Assembly (NCBI GenBank): GCA_002163155.1
Contig: MAAO01000008.1
Coordinates: forward strand, 62,001 to 126,000
Origin: Halobacteriovorax marinus
GTDB lineage: Bacteria; Bdellovibrionota; Bacteriovoracia; Bacteriovoracales; Bacteriovoracaceae
Direction: 5' to 3'
Length of the DNA: 64,000 nt
The translations under genes and the position numbers were made by a program. This document shows, one piece after another, positions 15,296 to 20,643 of the stretch (within the stretch, counting starts at the first letter, position 1; every line of letters starts with the position of its first letter). The notes below the pieces were generated by a model that saw nothing but the letters and a program-made list of their open reading frames with translations, had not been told where the DNA came from and searched no databases.

Positions 15296-15706
15296 TTAGA
15301 AATCAAAAATACTATAAGCTTCTTCTTCTAATTCCGTAATACAGTCACTAAGTCTAAAGTAGAAATCATCATTTAAACTTCTCCATCTCCTAGACTCATC
15401 TACTAAGTCAGAATACTTAGCTAACTTTCCAATAGAGCAAGTTCCTGAGTAGATAGTTTCATTACAAAGAGATTCATCTTCCTCATAGCAACCTTCAAAA
15501 AGCTCCATTTCTATTTCACAAACCGAAGACTCAGAGTCACATTTAATTTCGTTAAAAGAAAAATCGAAATCTCCCTCACACCAAGTGTCTCCGCAGATAT
15601 TATCAATTTCTTCAAGAACTGTAGCTTGCTCTGTACTAGATAAGAATTCAGCAGCATTAGTGCTACTCATTAAAACTAAAGAAATGATCATTAAGAATTT
15701 TTTCAT
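15296..15706 (-). CDS. Small acidic Cys-rich secreted protein, unknown function
   Basis: 136 aa with a signal peptide (MKKFLMIISLVLMSSTNA, cleavage before AEF). The mature part is strongly acidic and has eight Cys, most in closely spaced pairs (NICGDTWCEGD, KCDSESSVCE, EGCYEEDESLCNE), consistent with a disulphide-rich or Ca-binding secreted protein. GGAGATAT precedes the ATG. No family recognised. Confidence 0.7.
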   Translation of the reverse strand: MKKFLMIISLVLMSSTNAAEFLSSTEQATVLEEIDNICGDTWCEGDFDFSFNEIKCDSESSVCEIEMELFEGCYEEDESLCNETIYSGTCSIGKLAKYSDLVDESRRWRSLNDDFYFRLSDCITELEEEAYSIFDF

Positions 15707-15789
15707 TATATCTCCACACGTTAATTTTTAAAGTGTGTGATATATATGACAAAGGCCATGACAGGTAAATTATATTATATTGATAAGAA

Positions 15790-15918
15790 CTATCTAATTA
15801 TTTTATGATTGAATTGTTCTAAAGACTCTGTACCTATCGATTCGTCAGCAAGAGAGCGCGGACCAAGAAAAATAAGAGAGAGAATACCAGTGAGAATTAA
15901 GCTTGTGAGTGGTTTCAT
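15790..15918 (-). CDS. Short (42 aa) secreted or membrane peptide
   Basis: The ATG at 15918 has AGAGGAAAG 6 nt upstream and encodes a Lys then a hydrophobic run (SLILTGILSLIFLGPRSLA) like a signal peptide, leaving about 20 mature residues. A longer frame starting at 15975 has no such support. It may be a genuine small envelope peptide. Confidence 0.45.
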   Translation of the reverse strand: MKPLTSLILTGILSLIFLGPRSLADESIGTESLEQFNHKIIR

Positions 15919-15969
15919 AAATAACTTTCCTCTAAAATAGTGCTTTATGCATTCTCGGCCATATACTAA

Positions 15970-15994
15970 TTTCACACAAGAGTCTTATGTGAAA
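15970..15994. promoter_or_regulatory. Inverted repeat, possible operator
   Basis: TTTCACA (15970-15976) and TGTGAAA (15988-15994), 11 nt apart, lie between the divergent 42-aa peptide gene and the membrane-protein pair. The arms point outward compared with a CRP site, so it is not a CRP box. Confidence 0.35.
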
Positions 15995-16078
15995 TCAATA
16001 GGTTATGATATGTATTTTCATAATAGCAGGCAAAAATTCAAGGCAGTAAAACGATCTATTATCGGCTATACTGCTCCT

Positions 16079-16459
16079 ATGACATTAAAGAGGTACTCCC
16101 TTAAATTTATAGCTTTCTTCATCGGTTGTTACGGCTGCTTCATGGTTAGAGACCTGCTAGGACTCTCTCCAGTTGTCTCCTCCGCTATTGTGGGACTCTT
16201 GGGTACACTTATTCCCCTTCCTTCTAAGCTCAATAAGTCGAGCATTTACGACGCCATTTACTGTGGCTCATTTGCAGGCATGTGTTCTGCGGAATATTTA
16301 AATACTCTAACAGGCTTCATAGTGATCTCAGCCATTGGCTCCCTAGTTTATCTACTGTGCGTTCCGCACTTTAAGGGTCATGGAGGAAAGTTTGGAAGTA
16401 TGGCCTTTGTGACATTTCTTCTCTTTCTCATTACTAAGAGGAATTTATGGACTTTCTAA
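16079..16459 (+). CDS. Small multi-spanning membrane protein A, unknown function
   Basis: About 126 aa from the ATG at 16079, with four or five hydrophobic segments. A longer frame to 15947 exists, but it would contain the inverted repeat and a soluble N-terminus without a Shine-Dalgarno sequence. The ATG chosen has TATACT exactly 6 nt upstream, fitting a leaderless mRNA. The C-terminal half (GSFAGMCSAEYLN ... HGGKFGSMAFVTF) aligns by eye with the next gene (GAFVGTVCATKYN ... YGGAIGTSAFVS), so the two are tandem paralogues. They overlap by 13 nt. Family unknown. Confidence 0.6.
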   Translation: MTLKRYSLKFIAFFIGCYGCFMVRDLLGLSPVVSSAIVGLLGTLIPLPSKLNKSSIYDAIYCGSFAGMCSAEYLNTLTGFIVISAIGSLVYLLCVPHFKGHGGKFGSMAFVTFLLFLITKRNLWTF

Positions 16460-16857
16460 TCTATGCCAGTATTGCCTGTATTTCAGCATTAGTGACACAT
16501 GAATTTTCGAAAAAAAGAAATATTGGGGCCGTTCGCGCTTCGGCCATTTACACGCTAGTCACAACAGCTATTCTCTACTCCATTCATTCCTCATCCCCAC
16601 TAGCAGGACTAGCTAACTATGAAGGGTTAATTTTTGGAGGGGCCTTTGTAGGAACAGTTTGTGCCACTAAGTATAATAGGATTATGATTACTATTGGTGG
16701 CCTTATTCTCGCTCTGATTTTCTTCTTTATAAGACCCCATACTTACGGTTATGGCGGAGCGATTGGAACTAGTGCTTTTGTCTCTTGCATGAGTATCTAT
16801 TTACTAAGAGCACTACTTTTAAAGTCTAAACCTATTATTTTAAGAAATCGTATTTAA
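16447..16857 (+). CDS. Small multi-spanning membrane protein B, paralogue of A
   Basis: 136 aa with five likely membrane helices and almost no soluble part. AGAGGAA precedes the ATG inside the upstream gene. Shared positions with protein A include G-x-F-x-G, a Tyr-Asn step, and a GG-x-x-G-x-x-x-F segment before the last helix. An inner-membrane hetero-oligomer is a reasonable inference; no transported substrate can be named. The 3' end overlaps the convergent SRAP gene by 23 nt. Confidence 0.7.
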   Translation: MDFLIYASIACISALVTHEFSKKRNIGAVRASAIYTLVTTAILYSIHSSSPLAGLANYEGLIFGGAFVGTVCATKYNRIMITIGGLILALIFFFIRPHTYGYGGAIGTSAFVSCMSIYLLRALLLKSKPIILRNRI

Positions 16858-17539
16858 AGAGACCCTCACGTGGCTCCTTCAGTATATTGTAGGCAGTCTC
16901 TGAGTCTAGTTTTTGAGAATCCAACCAAGTATCAATATTTTCATTCTTTAAAAGAATAGGACAACGGTCGTGACCAGCGGCCAAGACTTCCCTTGGAGGA
17001 TCATCAGTAATAATGGCGAAGGAATTCAAAGTTTCACTGCCATCAACACTCTGCCAACGATCAAAGAGTCCAGCGGCAAGCATGAGCTCCTCTCCCTCTT
17101 GGTAGAATGCTGCCACCTCAACTTTACTCTTTCTTGGAATGTACTCATAGAATTTTCTAAAAGGAATGAGTACATGATGATTTAAGAAATTCCCCTTCCA
17201 AGCATGTCTTGATTCAAGAGCATCTAATCTCGCGTTATAAGATTTAACTAGATTCTTTCTTCCCGTTTTCTCATTAATTCTCGTGTACTTAGTTTCTTTA
17301 CAAAAACTAGGCAACAATTGATAGCGCATGGGTGTAATGGTACGAATACCATTTTCTAGAATCACCACTGGAGCGTAGTAATTCGGGTAAATTCTATTTT
17401 CAACGTCAGGTGCTTTAAAAGATTGGGGATCTTGTTCTTTTGATTTTAAGAACTTATCAAAGGCCTGTGCATCTATCTTCGCATTTAGAAGTTTTGATAA
17501 TTTTCTTAAATCTCTTTCTACTTGGACACTGAAACACAT
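16835..17539 (-). CDS. SRAP (YedK/HMCES-like) abasic-site DNA-protein crosslinker
   Basis: 234 aa beginning Met-Cys: Cys2 is the residue that, after Met removal, forms a thiazolidine crosslink with abasic sites in single-stranded DNA. Other SRAP landmarks are MRYQLLPSF, the Glu in FRKFYEYIPR, AGLFDRW, FAIITDDPP and the catalytic His in AGHDRCPILL. Usual length for the family. There is no Shine-Dalgarno sequence; a -10-like TTTAAT lies 6 nt from the ATG, so the mRNA may be leaderless. Confidence 0.92.
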   Translation of the reverse strand: MCFSVQVERDLRKLSKLLNAKIDAQAFDKFLKSKEQDPQSFKAPDVENRIYPNYYAPVVILENGIRTITPMRYQLLPSFCKETKYTRINEKTGRKNLVKSYNARLDALESRHAWKGNFLNHHVLIPFRKFYEYIPRKSKVEVAAFYQEGEELMLAAGLFDRWQSVDGSETLNSFAIITDDPPREVLAAGHDRCPILLKNENIDTWLDSQKLDSETAYNILKEPREGLFKYDFLK

Positions 17540-17545
17540 GGTAGT

Positions 17546-17574
17546 ATTAAAGCGGTAATTCTATTTATTTACAA
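17546..17574 (-). promoter_or_regulatory. Promoter for a leaderless SRAP mRNA
   Basis: On the minus strand TTGTAA (17574-17569), exactly 17 nt, TTTAAT (17551-17546), 6 nt, then the ATG (17539). Transcription would start at the A of the ATG. Confidence 0.55.
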
Positions 17575-17596
17575 GTTAAACTTATTTGGAGCAATC

Positions 17597-18097
17597 ATGA
17601 AAAAAATCATTCTATGTTCACTTCTTCTCATTAATTTACAGGCGGCCAATATTCTTCCCACTGTAAAGATTGCAGATAAAGACGGTGGAAGGTTAGATGG
17701 CTCAGCTTGGTCAACTAGTGAGATGAAAGGAAAAGTTCATGTGCTCTTCTACGTTGACCCCGATGAAAAAGATCTCAATGAAGAGGCCTCTCAGGCCATA
17801 AAGAAAGAAAACTTCCCTCTTGATAAGTACGCGGCAGTAGCCGTAATAAATATGAAGGCCACATGGCTTCCAAACTTTGCTCTAGACAGTGCCTTAAAAG
17901 AAAAACAGAAGGAATATCCAGACACGCTTTATGTAAAAGATTTAACTAAGTCACTTCTAAAAAAGTGGAGTCTAAAAGATGACTCCAGTAACATTCTGCT
18001 CTTTAATAAAAAGGGAGAAAATATCTACACTATTTTTGGAAAGGCCAAGAGTTCGCAAATTAAAGTCCTCATCTCACTTATTAAATTAAATCTCTAA
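17597..18097 (+). CDS. YtfJ-family periplasmic thioredoxin-fold-like protein
   Basis: 166 aa from the ATG at 17597, chosen for GGAG 5 nt upstream and because it begins the signal peptide (MKKIILCSLLLINLQA). The mature protein follows the YtfJ pattern: LPTVKIADKDGG, GKVHVLFYVDPDEKDLNEEA, FPLDKYAAVAVINMKAT, SALKEKQKEYPDTLYVKD and a C-terminal FNKKGENIYTIFGKA. No CxxC is present, so it is not an obvious disulphide reductase. The function of YtfJ is not established. It ends overlapping the convergent REC gene by 4 nt. Confidence 0.8.
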   Translation: MKKIILCSLLLINLQAANILPTVKIADKDGGRLDGSAWSTSEMKGKVHVLFYVDPDEKDLNEEASQAIKKENFPLDKYAAVAVINMKATWLPNFALDSALKEKQKEYPDTLYVKDLTKSLLKKWSLKDDSSNILLFNKKGENIYTIFGKAKSSQIKVLISLIKLNL

Positions 18098-18486
18098 ACA
18101 AAACCAATTTCTTTAATCTGCTTCTTCAGTTGATTAAAATCAAGGGGCTTACTAAGAAAACCAGTGGCCCCTAATTCATTTGCTTTACTTACTAATTCTT
18201 CTGTCTCATAAGCCGTGATCATAAAGACTTTAACGTAGCCGTAGTTATTGTGCACTAATGTCAAGAGAGTGAGACCATCCATTACGGGCATATTTACATC
18301 TGAGAGAATGAGTAGGATTTCAACTTCATCTTTATTTCTTTCTAAGAATTCATAACATTCTTCTCCATTTTCAAAAAAGAAAAAATTATACAATCCAGAG
18401 CGAATTTCTTTTCGAAAATGCATTTTAAACAGATTGAATACTTCAACCTCATCATCAACAAGGGCTATATTAATTATATCAGTCAT
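18094..18486 (-). CDS. Single-domain response regulator
   Basis: 130-aa stand-alone receiver with every canonical residue: acidic pair in LVDDEVEV, phospho-acceptor Asp in LSDVNMPVMDG, Thr in FMITAYET and Lys in FLSKPLD. There is no output domain. It begins in the last base of the ethylene-receptor-like kinase (TAATG), so the two are coupled and the kinase is its presumed phosphodonor. Confidence 0.92.
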   Translation of the reverse strand: MTDIINIALVDDEVEVFNLFKMHFRKEIRSGLYNFFFFENGEECYEFLERNKDEVEILLILSDVNMPVMDGLTLLTLVHNNYGYVKVFMITAYETEELVSKANELGATGFLSKPLDFNQLKKQIKEIGFV

Positions 18487-19730
18487 TAAGAGTTCCTCCC
18501 CTTCATTTTAAGTGGTAAGAGAATTGTGACTTCAGTAAAGTCATGAATTTTCGAATCAAAGAGAAACTCTCCCTCATGAGACTTTATAATATCATTGACC
18601 ATAGAAAGTCCCAGTCCGGCGCCTTCGCCCGCTCTCTTAGTGGTATAGAAGGGCTCTAAGACACGATCAAAAATATCATCAGGAATCCCTGAGCCATTAT
18701 CATGAATTTTTAAACAGGCATGAGTTTGATCTTTAAGTGTTAATTCTACTTTAAGCTTTGGTTTAAAGTGTTCACCTAAGTCATTCTTCTTCTTTTTAAG
18801 AGCGTAAAAACTATTATCAAAGATATTTGTTAAGGCCCTACCAATATCCACTGCTATTAAATCCATTTCTCCAATATTAACCAACGTAAGATCAGTTTTT
18901 ACATCCATAACATATTTCACTCTGGCAGAATGGAAAGATAAATTAAGATATTCAGTTACGAGATCTTTTAAATTACATAGTTTAAAAGTCACTTTTCCGG
19001 AGCGAGTTTGTGCCAGCATATTTTTAATTATGGCATCCGCTCTTTTTCCATTGTTGGTAATTATGCTACACCCGTGAATCGCCTCATCTAGATCTTCCTC
19101 AAAATCTTTCTTCTTATCTAATTGAATTTCTTTCAACAATATATCCTTATGAATCAAGAGATCTCCCTCCATGAAATCCTTTATATAATCAGCTGAATTA
19201 ATCATGAGATTGATAGGGTTTTTTATTTCATGGGCAATACCTGCGGCCACTGTCCCAAGGGAAGCTAATTTCTCCTGAGAAATAAGTGACTTCTGGAGTC
19301 TTTCTTTTTGTTCTAAAGCTTCTTTTAATTTTTTATTAATTTCCATTAACTCAGTGGGAGTAGGCAATTTTAGTATGGCAGGAATAATGGGAATGATTAC
19401 TGCTACTGACAACACAGATGCCGTGGCCGTGAGGGCCTTCAAAACTCCTCCTAACCAATAATTAGAGTGCCAGAGGTTCCAAACCTCCATGAGATGCGTG
19501 AAGCCGCAAAATAGAAATAAACTCGCTATTACTGTAATCGCCCAATCAAAGGGAATCTTCTTTCTCGACTTCATGACAATGACCATTAAAATCACTAGGA
19601 TTATTTCAAAACTAAGAAATAATAAGAAATCAGAAATGACGTGTAGCCAAACCAGACTAGGCTTCCACAAGTAACAATGCCCGTGGGGCATGAAATCACT
19701 TTCAGAAAAAAAGTTAAAAAGACTCTCCAT
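18486..19730 (-). CDS. Histidine kinase with ethylene-receptor (ETR1-type) transmembrane domain
   Basis: 414 aa. The N-terminus (about residues 20-120) has three membrane helices and matches the ETR1 sensor layout: ISDF with Asp34 (ETR1 Asp25), then FLFCGFTHLMEVW with Cys75 and His79, the equivalents of the copper ligands Cys65 and His69 that bind ethylene in plants and Synechocystis. ETR1 Tyr32 is Phe here and Pro36 is Leu. A coiled coil (about 127-155) leads to HisKA with AHEIKNP (His167) and HATPase boxes (NIFDNSFYAL, DNGSGIPDD, GEGAGLGLS). GGAG precedes the ATG. It is followed by a coupled REC gene and preceded by a solute-binding protein gene. Confidence 0.9.
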   Translation of the reverse strand: MESLFNFFSESDFMPHGHCYLWKPSLVWLHVISDFLLFLSFEIILVILMVIVMKSRKKIPFDWAITVIASLFLFCGFTHLMEVWNLWHSNYWLGGVLKALTATASVLSVAVIIPIIPAILKLPTPTELMEINKKLKEALEQKERLQKSLISQEKLASLGTVAAGIAHEIKNPINLMINSADYIKDFMEGDLLIHKDILLKEIQLDKKKDFEEDLDEAIHGCSIITNNGKRADAIIKNMLAQTRSGKVTFKLCNLKDLVTEYLNLSFHSARVKYVMDVKTDLTLVNIGEMDLIAVDIGRALTNIFDNSFYALKKKKNDLGEHFKPKLKVELTLKDQTHACLKIHDNGSGIPDDIFDRVLEPFYTTKRAGEGAGLGLSMVNDIIKSHEGEFLFDSKIHDFTEVTILLPLKMKGRNS

Positions 19731-19795
19731 TATCTACTCCAATATATTTTCTATGTAGTCTAACTCATATTTTAGAAAATAAAAATTATAGAGAA

Positions 19796-20581
19796 TCAGT
19801 CGGTAATGTATTGATCTCCCCTAGAGATCTTTAGTCGGTCTAGAGAATACTTATCTCGTAATTTCTTAAGATAACTTTTAGATTTAAGATCTAGGATTCT
19901 TGCATTAATGAGATCAAGATCATCAAGTAAAACGGATTTCTTTGAGATGCCAAAATGAAGCTGCATAGGATCGATGGGAACACTACTACACTCAACCTTG
20001 CCGGCTACGTCAGGGTTGCTGGAAATAAGGTTTCTTACAACCGTTTCATTAAATATGGCAGCATCCACGCGCCCACGTAGAAGAATTTTTAAATTAGTTG
20101 AGGCATATTTAACAATAACGGCCCTAACATAATTTCTTCTAATAGCGTCATTCAATTCTTCTCCATAATAAAAGTCTTTAACCACACCTACTTTTTCATT
20201 ATAGAGCTCTACAATGTTTGTAATATTTGAAAATTTAGACTCGGAGTTTTCGCTAAGATAGCAAATAGAAAACCTCTCTAAATAAAGAGGTTCAGTGTAA
20301 ACCAAATACTCTGACCTCTCTAAGGTTTTAAAAAGAGGTCCTGTTATATCGGCACGACCTTTTTCCAGTAACTTTAAGGCAGTATGCCACTCTATACTCT
20401 TTGTTTCATACTCAGAAATACCAATTAAAATTTCAGCTAAAAGTTCAATAATTACCCCTTTATGGAGCTTCCCCTCTCTTTCATAAGTAAATGGAGGATA
20501 GGGATCGCAGACAAAGAGTACCTTGCCATAAGAGAGGTTACAGCTCAGCACTAATACCATAAATATTATTTTAAACTTCAT
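19796..20581 (-). CDS. Periplasmic solute-binding protein (SBP_bac_3 type)
   Basis: 261 aa from the ATG at 20581, which begins the signal peptide (MKFKIIFMVLVLSCNLSYG); the longer frame starts with an unsupported TTG. The core is typical of family-3 binding proteins: FVCDPYPPFTYEREG, then GVIIELLAEIL, LEKGRADITGPLFKT and a switch segment with VGVVKDFYYGEEL. No transporter genes are adjacent, and the next gene on the strand is the ETR1-like kinase 65 nt away, so a sensing role is possible. No Shine-Dalgarno sequence; TATAAT lies 6 nt before the ATG. Confidence 0.83.
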   Translation of the reverse strand: MKFKIIFMVLVLSCNLSYGKVLFVCDPYPPFTYEREGKLHKGVIIELLAEILIGISEYETKSIEWHTALKLLEKGRADITGPLFKTLERSEYLVYTEPLYLERFSICYLSENSESKFSNITNIVELYNEKVGVVKDFYYGEELNDAIRRNYVRAVIVKYASTNLKILLRGRVDAAIFNETVVRNLISSNPDVAGKVECSSVPIDPMQLHFGISKKSVLLDDLDLINARILDLKSKSYLKKLRDKYSLDRLKISRGDQYITD

Positions 20582-20587
20582 GGATAT

Positions 20588-20593
20588 ATTATA
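20588..20593 (-). promoter_or_regulatory. -10 element for a leaderless solute-binding-protein mRNA
   Basis: Perfect TATAAT on the minus strand, then ATATCC and the ATG. No convincing -35 at 16-18 nt. Confidence 0.45.
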
Positions 20594-20643
20594 TTTTGAT
20601 AGTGCGAATATTGTATTTATCAATAATTAAGATATTGAGAGAT

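Follow-up and report, generated by a model that had tools for sequence, protein, structure and literature searches.

Ethylene receptors of the ETR1 type sense their ligand through a three-helix membrane domain that holds Cu(I), as in Arabidopsis ETR1 and in tomato ETR3, the Never-ripe receptor. Ethylene binding by ETR1 requires seven residues (PMC11819568), most of whose positions are given in two further reports (PMC6586836, PMC8879215). Ethylene binding by AtETR1 is lowered by Y32A, F61A, and I62A, and the equivalent Y, F, and I make up the bottom of the pocket as modelled for tomato LeETR2 (PMC8879215). Tomato Never-ripe is the Pro36Leu allele of ETR3, whose product is described as incapable of ethylene binding (PMC6727826). 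P36L is also found in squash etr1a (PMC8012379), and Arabidopsis etr1-4, a receptor mutant, is insensitive to ethylene (PMC2923533).

Two bacterial receptors are among the closest known systems to the protein considered here. AzoEtr1 of Azospirillum brasilense (EBD-PAS-HK, 525 aa) binds ethylene, carries all seven ethylene residues, including D35, C75, and H79 alongside K98, and lies next to a gene for a single-domain response regulator (REC) of 135 aa (PMC11819568). Synechocystis SynEtr1 (slr1212) places an ETR1_N domain with a PHGHC motif on a histidine kinase, is accompanied by a response regulator, binds ethylene, and also senses light. The window, a 64,000-nucleotide stretch of Halobacteriovorax marinus DNA, encodes a kinase with the sensor-kinase order of AzoEtr1 and the aligned residues D34, C75, H79, and K98, together with an adjacent REC gene (Table 1). 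Unlike AzoEtr1, it is built without a PAS domain and retains four of the seven ethylene residues. The family was already known; in this member the pocket wall appears to have been rebuilt.

Membrane Domain, Kinase, and Partner Response Regulator

The N-terminus of the kinase matches the Pfam family ETR1_N (PF25487) at an E-value of 2.4e-25, scoring 89.1 bits where the cut-off is 27, and covers positions 2-97 of the 97 in the model. AlphaFold2, supplied with an alignment of 56 sequences, predicted three helices (aa 24-54, 62-87, and 91-120; mean pLDDT 87.7). With this score, the three helices, and the Cys and His both on helix 2, membership of the ETR1_N family is secure, and the three-helix topology proposed in the first-pass annotation is borne out. 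It is the sole ETR1_N domain in the host genome, where a second copy was sought and not found; a sequence search returned no solved structure for the domain, and a fold search gave no meaningful match.

In multiple alignments that include ETR1 and SynEtr1, D34, C75, and H79 of the kinase fall on D25, C65, and H69 of ETR1, as the first-pass annotation had placed them. When helix 2 was slid along the family profile, one register scored 59.7 and all others -9.1 or less, which rules out a misplacement of Cys75 and His79, and misalignment of helix 2 was rejected as the source of the pocket changes described below. The copper ligands are intact, as are D25, K91, T94, and S98 (ETR1 numbering) and the N-terminal PHGHC, and from the retained ligands the domain is predicted to bind copper. 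The P, H, G, and C of PHGHC are 94-95% conserved in bacterial ETR1_N members, about as strongly as the pocket, and the motif could serve as a copper entry site.

Table 1. Positions of the features discussed (window coordinates unless a locus is named).
Feature	Position	Strand	Remarks
Stretch of ~4.9 kb absent in congeners	15707..20643		two small membrane proteins, SRAP, YtfJ-like, REC, kinase, SBP
Single-domain response regulator (REC), 130 aa	18094..18486	-	start overlaps kinase stop
Sensor histidine kinase	18486..19730	-	414 aa: ETR1_N aa 26-122, short linker, HisKA, HATPase_c
ETR1_N (ethylene-binding-type) domain	19365..19655	-	aa 26-122; Pfam and AlphaFold2
C75-G-F-T-H79 copper-ligand motif	19494..19508	-	C65/H69 of ETR1, intact
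Helix-2 pocket face, I68..L71-F72	19515..19529	-	F58I, F61L, I62F in ETR1 numbering
Helix-1 pocket residues	19596..19631	-	D34 kept, F41 (Y32F), I44 (I35 kept), L45 (P36L)
P15-H-G-H-C19 motif, before helix 1	19674..19688	-	kept in bacterial members, missing from ETR1
SBP_bac_3 solute-binding protein	19796..20623	-	65 bp upstream of kinase; Pfam
Stand-alone ETR1_N ORF, L013	1471-1818	-	
Stand-alone ETR1_N ORF, L015	1447-1833		
Stand-alone ETR1_N ORF, L016/L065	446-802		
Stand-alone ETR1_N ORF, L017	1447-1839		same as L054:6004-6396
Stand-alone ETR1_N ORF, L026	1426-1827		
Stand-alone ETR1_N ORF, L024	1453-1815		

The kinase reading frame is uninterrupted, with coordinates and strand exactly as first annotated, and contains neither a PAS nor a GAF domain. 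HATPase_c is recognized by Pfam at 63.9 bits (2.3e-17), HisKA weakly at 22.2 bits, under the cut-off of 26.9 with its H-box present, and all catalytic boxes can be found by eye: the H-box (HEIKNP), the N-box (NIFDNS), DNGSGIP, and GAGLGLSM. HisKA, HATPase_c, and a partner response regulator together identify a two-component sensor kinase. The nearest kinase core elsewhere in the genome (G000 C1, 525 aa) is 41-43% identical, carries a different N-terminal sensor, and is overlapped by a REC 40% identical to that of the window. A paralogous REC thus accompanies the paralogous kinase, which supports the lone REC that the first-pass annotation had noticed beside the gene as the partner of the window kinase, and core and REC look like one paralogous module fitted with different sensors. 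Lone REC genes lie downstream of ETR1_N proteins in at least 13 of about 80 loci.

Pocket Wall Among Homologues

The full list of required residues, reportedly set out by Wang and colleagues in 2006, comprises D25, Y32, I35, P36, I62, C65, and H69. At these positions the window domain reads D F I L F C H, with Y32F, P36L, and I62F as the three alterations, and on this sequence standard it would not be classed as a functional ethylene receptor. F58I and F61L are further departures on the same face of helix 2, in columns that are 98-99% conserved. Y32F and P36L, the two changes named in the first-pass annotation, are thus real; its total of two was too low, for it had overlooked I62F as well as F58I and F61L. 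We take I62F to be the substitution of Arabidopsis etr1-4; a literature search found no paper for I62F. SynEtr1, by alignment, carries the consensus residues at the changed positions. The window protein is no plant mutant allele: the Never-ripe P36L occurs in it naturally and together with I62F, in addition to Y32F, F58I, and F61L.

The domain was compared with 217 distinct homologues from Bdellovibrionota, Pseudomonadota, Myxococcota, Cyanobacteriota, Bacteroidota, Acidobacteriota, Verrucomicrobiota, and others. Neither F58I nor I62F occurs in any of the 217, while leucine at F61 is present in 2, Y32F in 6, and P36L in 3. P36 commonly varies among bacterial members (46 have S and 15 have A), so P36L by itself says little, and the rare changes are Y32F, F58I, F61L, and I62F. 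Of 21 columns that are each at least 88% conserved, 10 belong to the helix 1-2 core, where the window domain differs at 4, and 11 lie elsewhere, where it differs at 1. Seven other homologues have four or more core departures; these are degraded throughout, with 7-15 of the 21 columns altered, and six of the seven have lost C65 or H69. The change in the window domain is therefore local to the pocket wall. Since F61L and I62F together shift a phenyl ring to the next position, and since all five exchanges replace one hydrophobic residue with another, the pattern looks more like remodelling than decay.

Relatives and Genomic Setting

In a tree of the domain, the window sequence, on an end branch of 1.08, has its nearest group in stand-alone ETR1_N proteins from other Bdellovibrionota, with support that is not decisive (SH-aLRT 92). 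These proteins (L013, L015-L017, and L026) have a similar extra residue in the loop that joins helices 1 and 2; unlike the window protein, they are ~120-135 aa long, are encoded without a kinase in the same ORF, and keep all seven ethylene residues. In five of the six stand-alone loci read, a separate kinase-type gene lies within about 60 bp, the gap in L015 being about 350 bp; Pfam was run on five of these kinase-type partners. Such pairs of ETR1_N and histidine-kinase genes, some followed by a REC gene, appear to be split ethylene receptors of the Bdellovibrionota. Elsewhere in the family, an Arsukibacterium protein (L079:6001-6930) fuses ETR1_N to a GGDEF diguanylate cyclase, an arrangement that would tie the sensor to c-di-GMP, and eight diverged domains (L135, L136, L138, L140, L141, and L197-L199), most of them without the Cys or His ligand, are candidate metal-free sensors.

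Of 369 genomes from the phylum, 63 carry ETR1_N; none of four congeners of the host does. In all four, the 4.9 kb stretch that holds the kinase is missing between conserved neighbours, and the kinase gene was rejected as a genus trait; a lolC-like gene lies near the homologue of window 15296-15706 in three of the congeners and near another gene in the fourth. Base composition, with GC of 0.33-0.41 across the stretch and no clear contrast, did not sustain a call of recent transfer. The SRAP gene in the stretch encodes an SOS-associated protein. Promoter-like matches near the window genes were no more frequent than expected by chance. Several loci of the host's family are identical to metagenome-assembled genomes named Bacteriovoracaceae or Bacteriovorax, so a predatory lifestyle, as first proposed, is likely.

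Several weakly similar solute-binding genes occur in the genome, among them the one beside the kinase, and some of them lie near kinases. At L281, L282, and L283 of the same genome, SBP_bac_3-like genes adjoin histidine kinase genes, which suggests recurring neighbourhoods of this kind. Across the family, only 2 of about 80 loci (L079 and L089) have an SBP-like gene adjoining the ETR1_N gene. The link drawn in the first-pass annotation is one of gene adjacency only. No copper gene was found among the neighbouring genes scanned; a CopA-type Cu(I) ATPase, the sole Cu ATPase over the cut-off, is encoded on another contig, and its presence in the genome agrees with a copper-holding sensor.

Candidate Ligands and Signalling

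The first-pass annotation had asked whether the receptor senses ethylene, another small gas, or copper, and the pocket sharpens this question by shifting it, on sequence grounds, against ethylene. Somewhat better than even, in our estimate, are the chances that the kinase is a two-component sensor that holds Cu(I) and in which ethylene recognition has been lost or altered. Such a sensor would be a dimeric membrane protein with Cu(I) held by C75 and H79 and the site positioned by D34 and K98, while the rebuilt hydrophobic wall beside the metal would preclude ethylene binding of useful affinity. It would respond either to some other small ligand that arrives at the buried Cu(I) by way of the membrane, or to the filling of the site with Cu(I) itself. 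Occupancy of the site would shift helix 3 and, through the short linker, alter autophosphorylation of the HisKA histidine, from which the phosphate would pass to the overlapping REC.

Against this reading, the hydrophobic exchanges and the swap of bulk between F61L and I62F could mean that the changes offset one another and that ethylene still binds at Cu(I), as in an ordinary bacterial receptor. Every metal-site residue is kept, bacterial homologues often have S or A at P36, and the layout of histidine kinase and lone REC is that of the functional AzoEtr1 (PMC11819568). Such compensation nevertheless appears unlikely, given that three of seven ETR1-required residues are altered, that P36L alone disables a plant receptor (PMC6727826), and that F58I and I62F are without precedent among the homologues. 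Less probable still is that the domain is decaying and persists as a membrane anchor and dimeriser of a kinase that is constitutive or signalled by the solute-binding protein or another partner. The long end branch and the closeness of the SBP_bac_3 gene are in keeping with this account, as is the inability of plant receptors that do not bind ethylene to be switched off (PMC6727826), but the metal site and PHGHC are intact, unlike those of most other diverged members, and an SBP-like neighbour is rare in the family.

Within the preferred reading of a copper-holding sensor whose recognition of ethylene is lost or altered, the signal may be Cu(I)/Ag(I) status itself, read as metal loading. Retention of the metal ligands and the Cys/His-rich PHGHC, and not of the ethylene wall, speaks for this sub-case; the lack of a copper-handling gene among the neighbours scanned, which also counts against the preferred reading as a whole, makes it rather improbable, and such probability as it has is already included in that of the parent reading. 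It is a tentative proposal, and clearly less probable than the preferred reading, that the wall was exchanged for a non-ethylene ligand around a kept Cu(I) site, a natural specificity switch; to our knowledge, none has previously been described in the ethylene-receptor fold. Because only one genome carries the kinase, selection on the new pocket is not demonstrable.

Alanine scans and plant mutants have supplied most of what is known about the ethylene pocket of ETR1_N. With its metal site kept and five wall residues replaced, a natural protein would separate copper binding from ethylene binding, and the window protein thus offers a direct test case for the determinants of ligand specificity. 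It also counsels caution, in that bacterial ETR1_N proteins should not all be named ethylene receptors.
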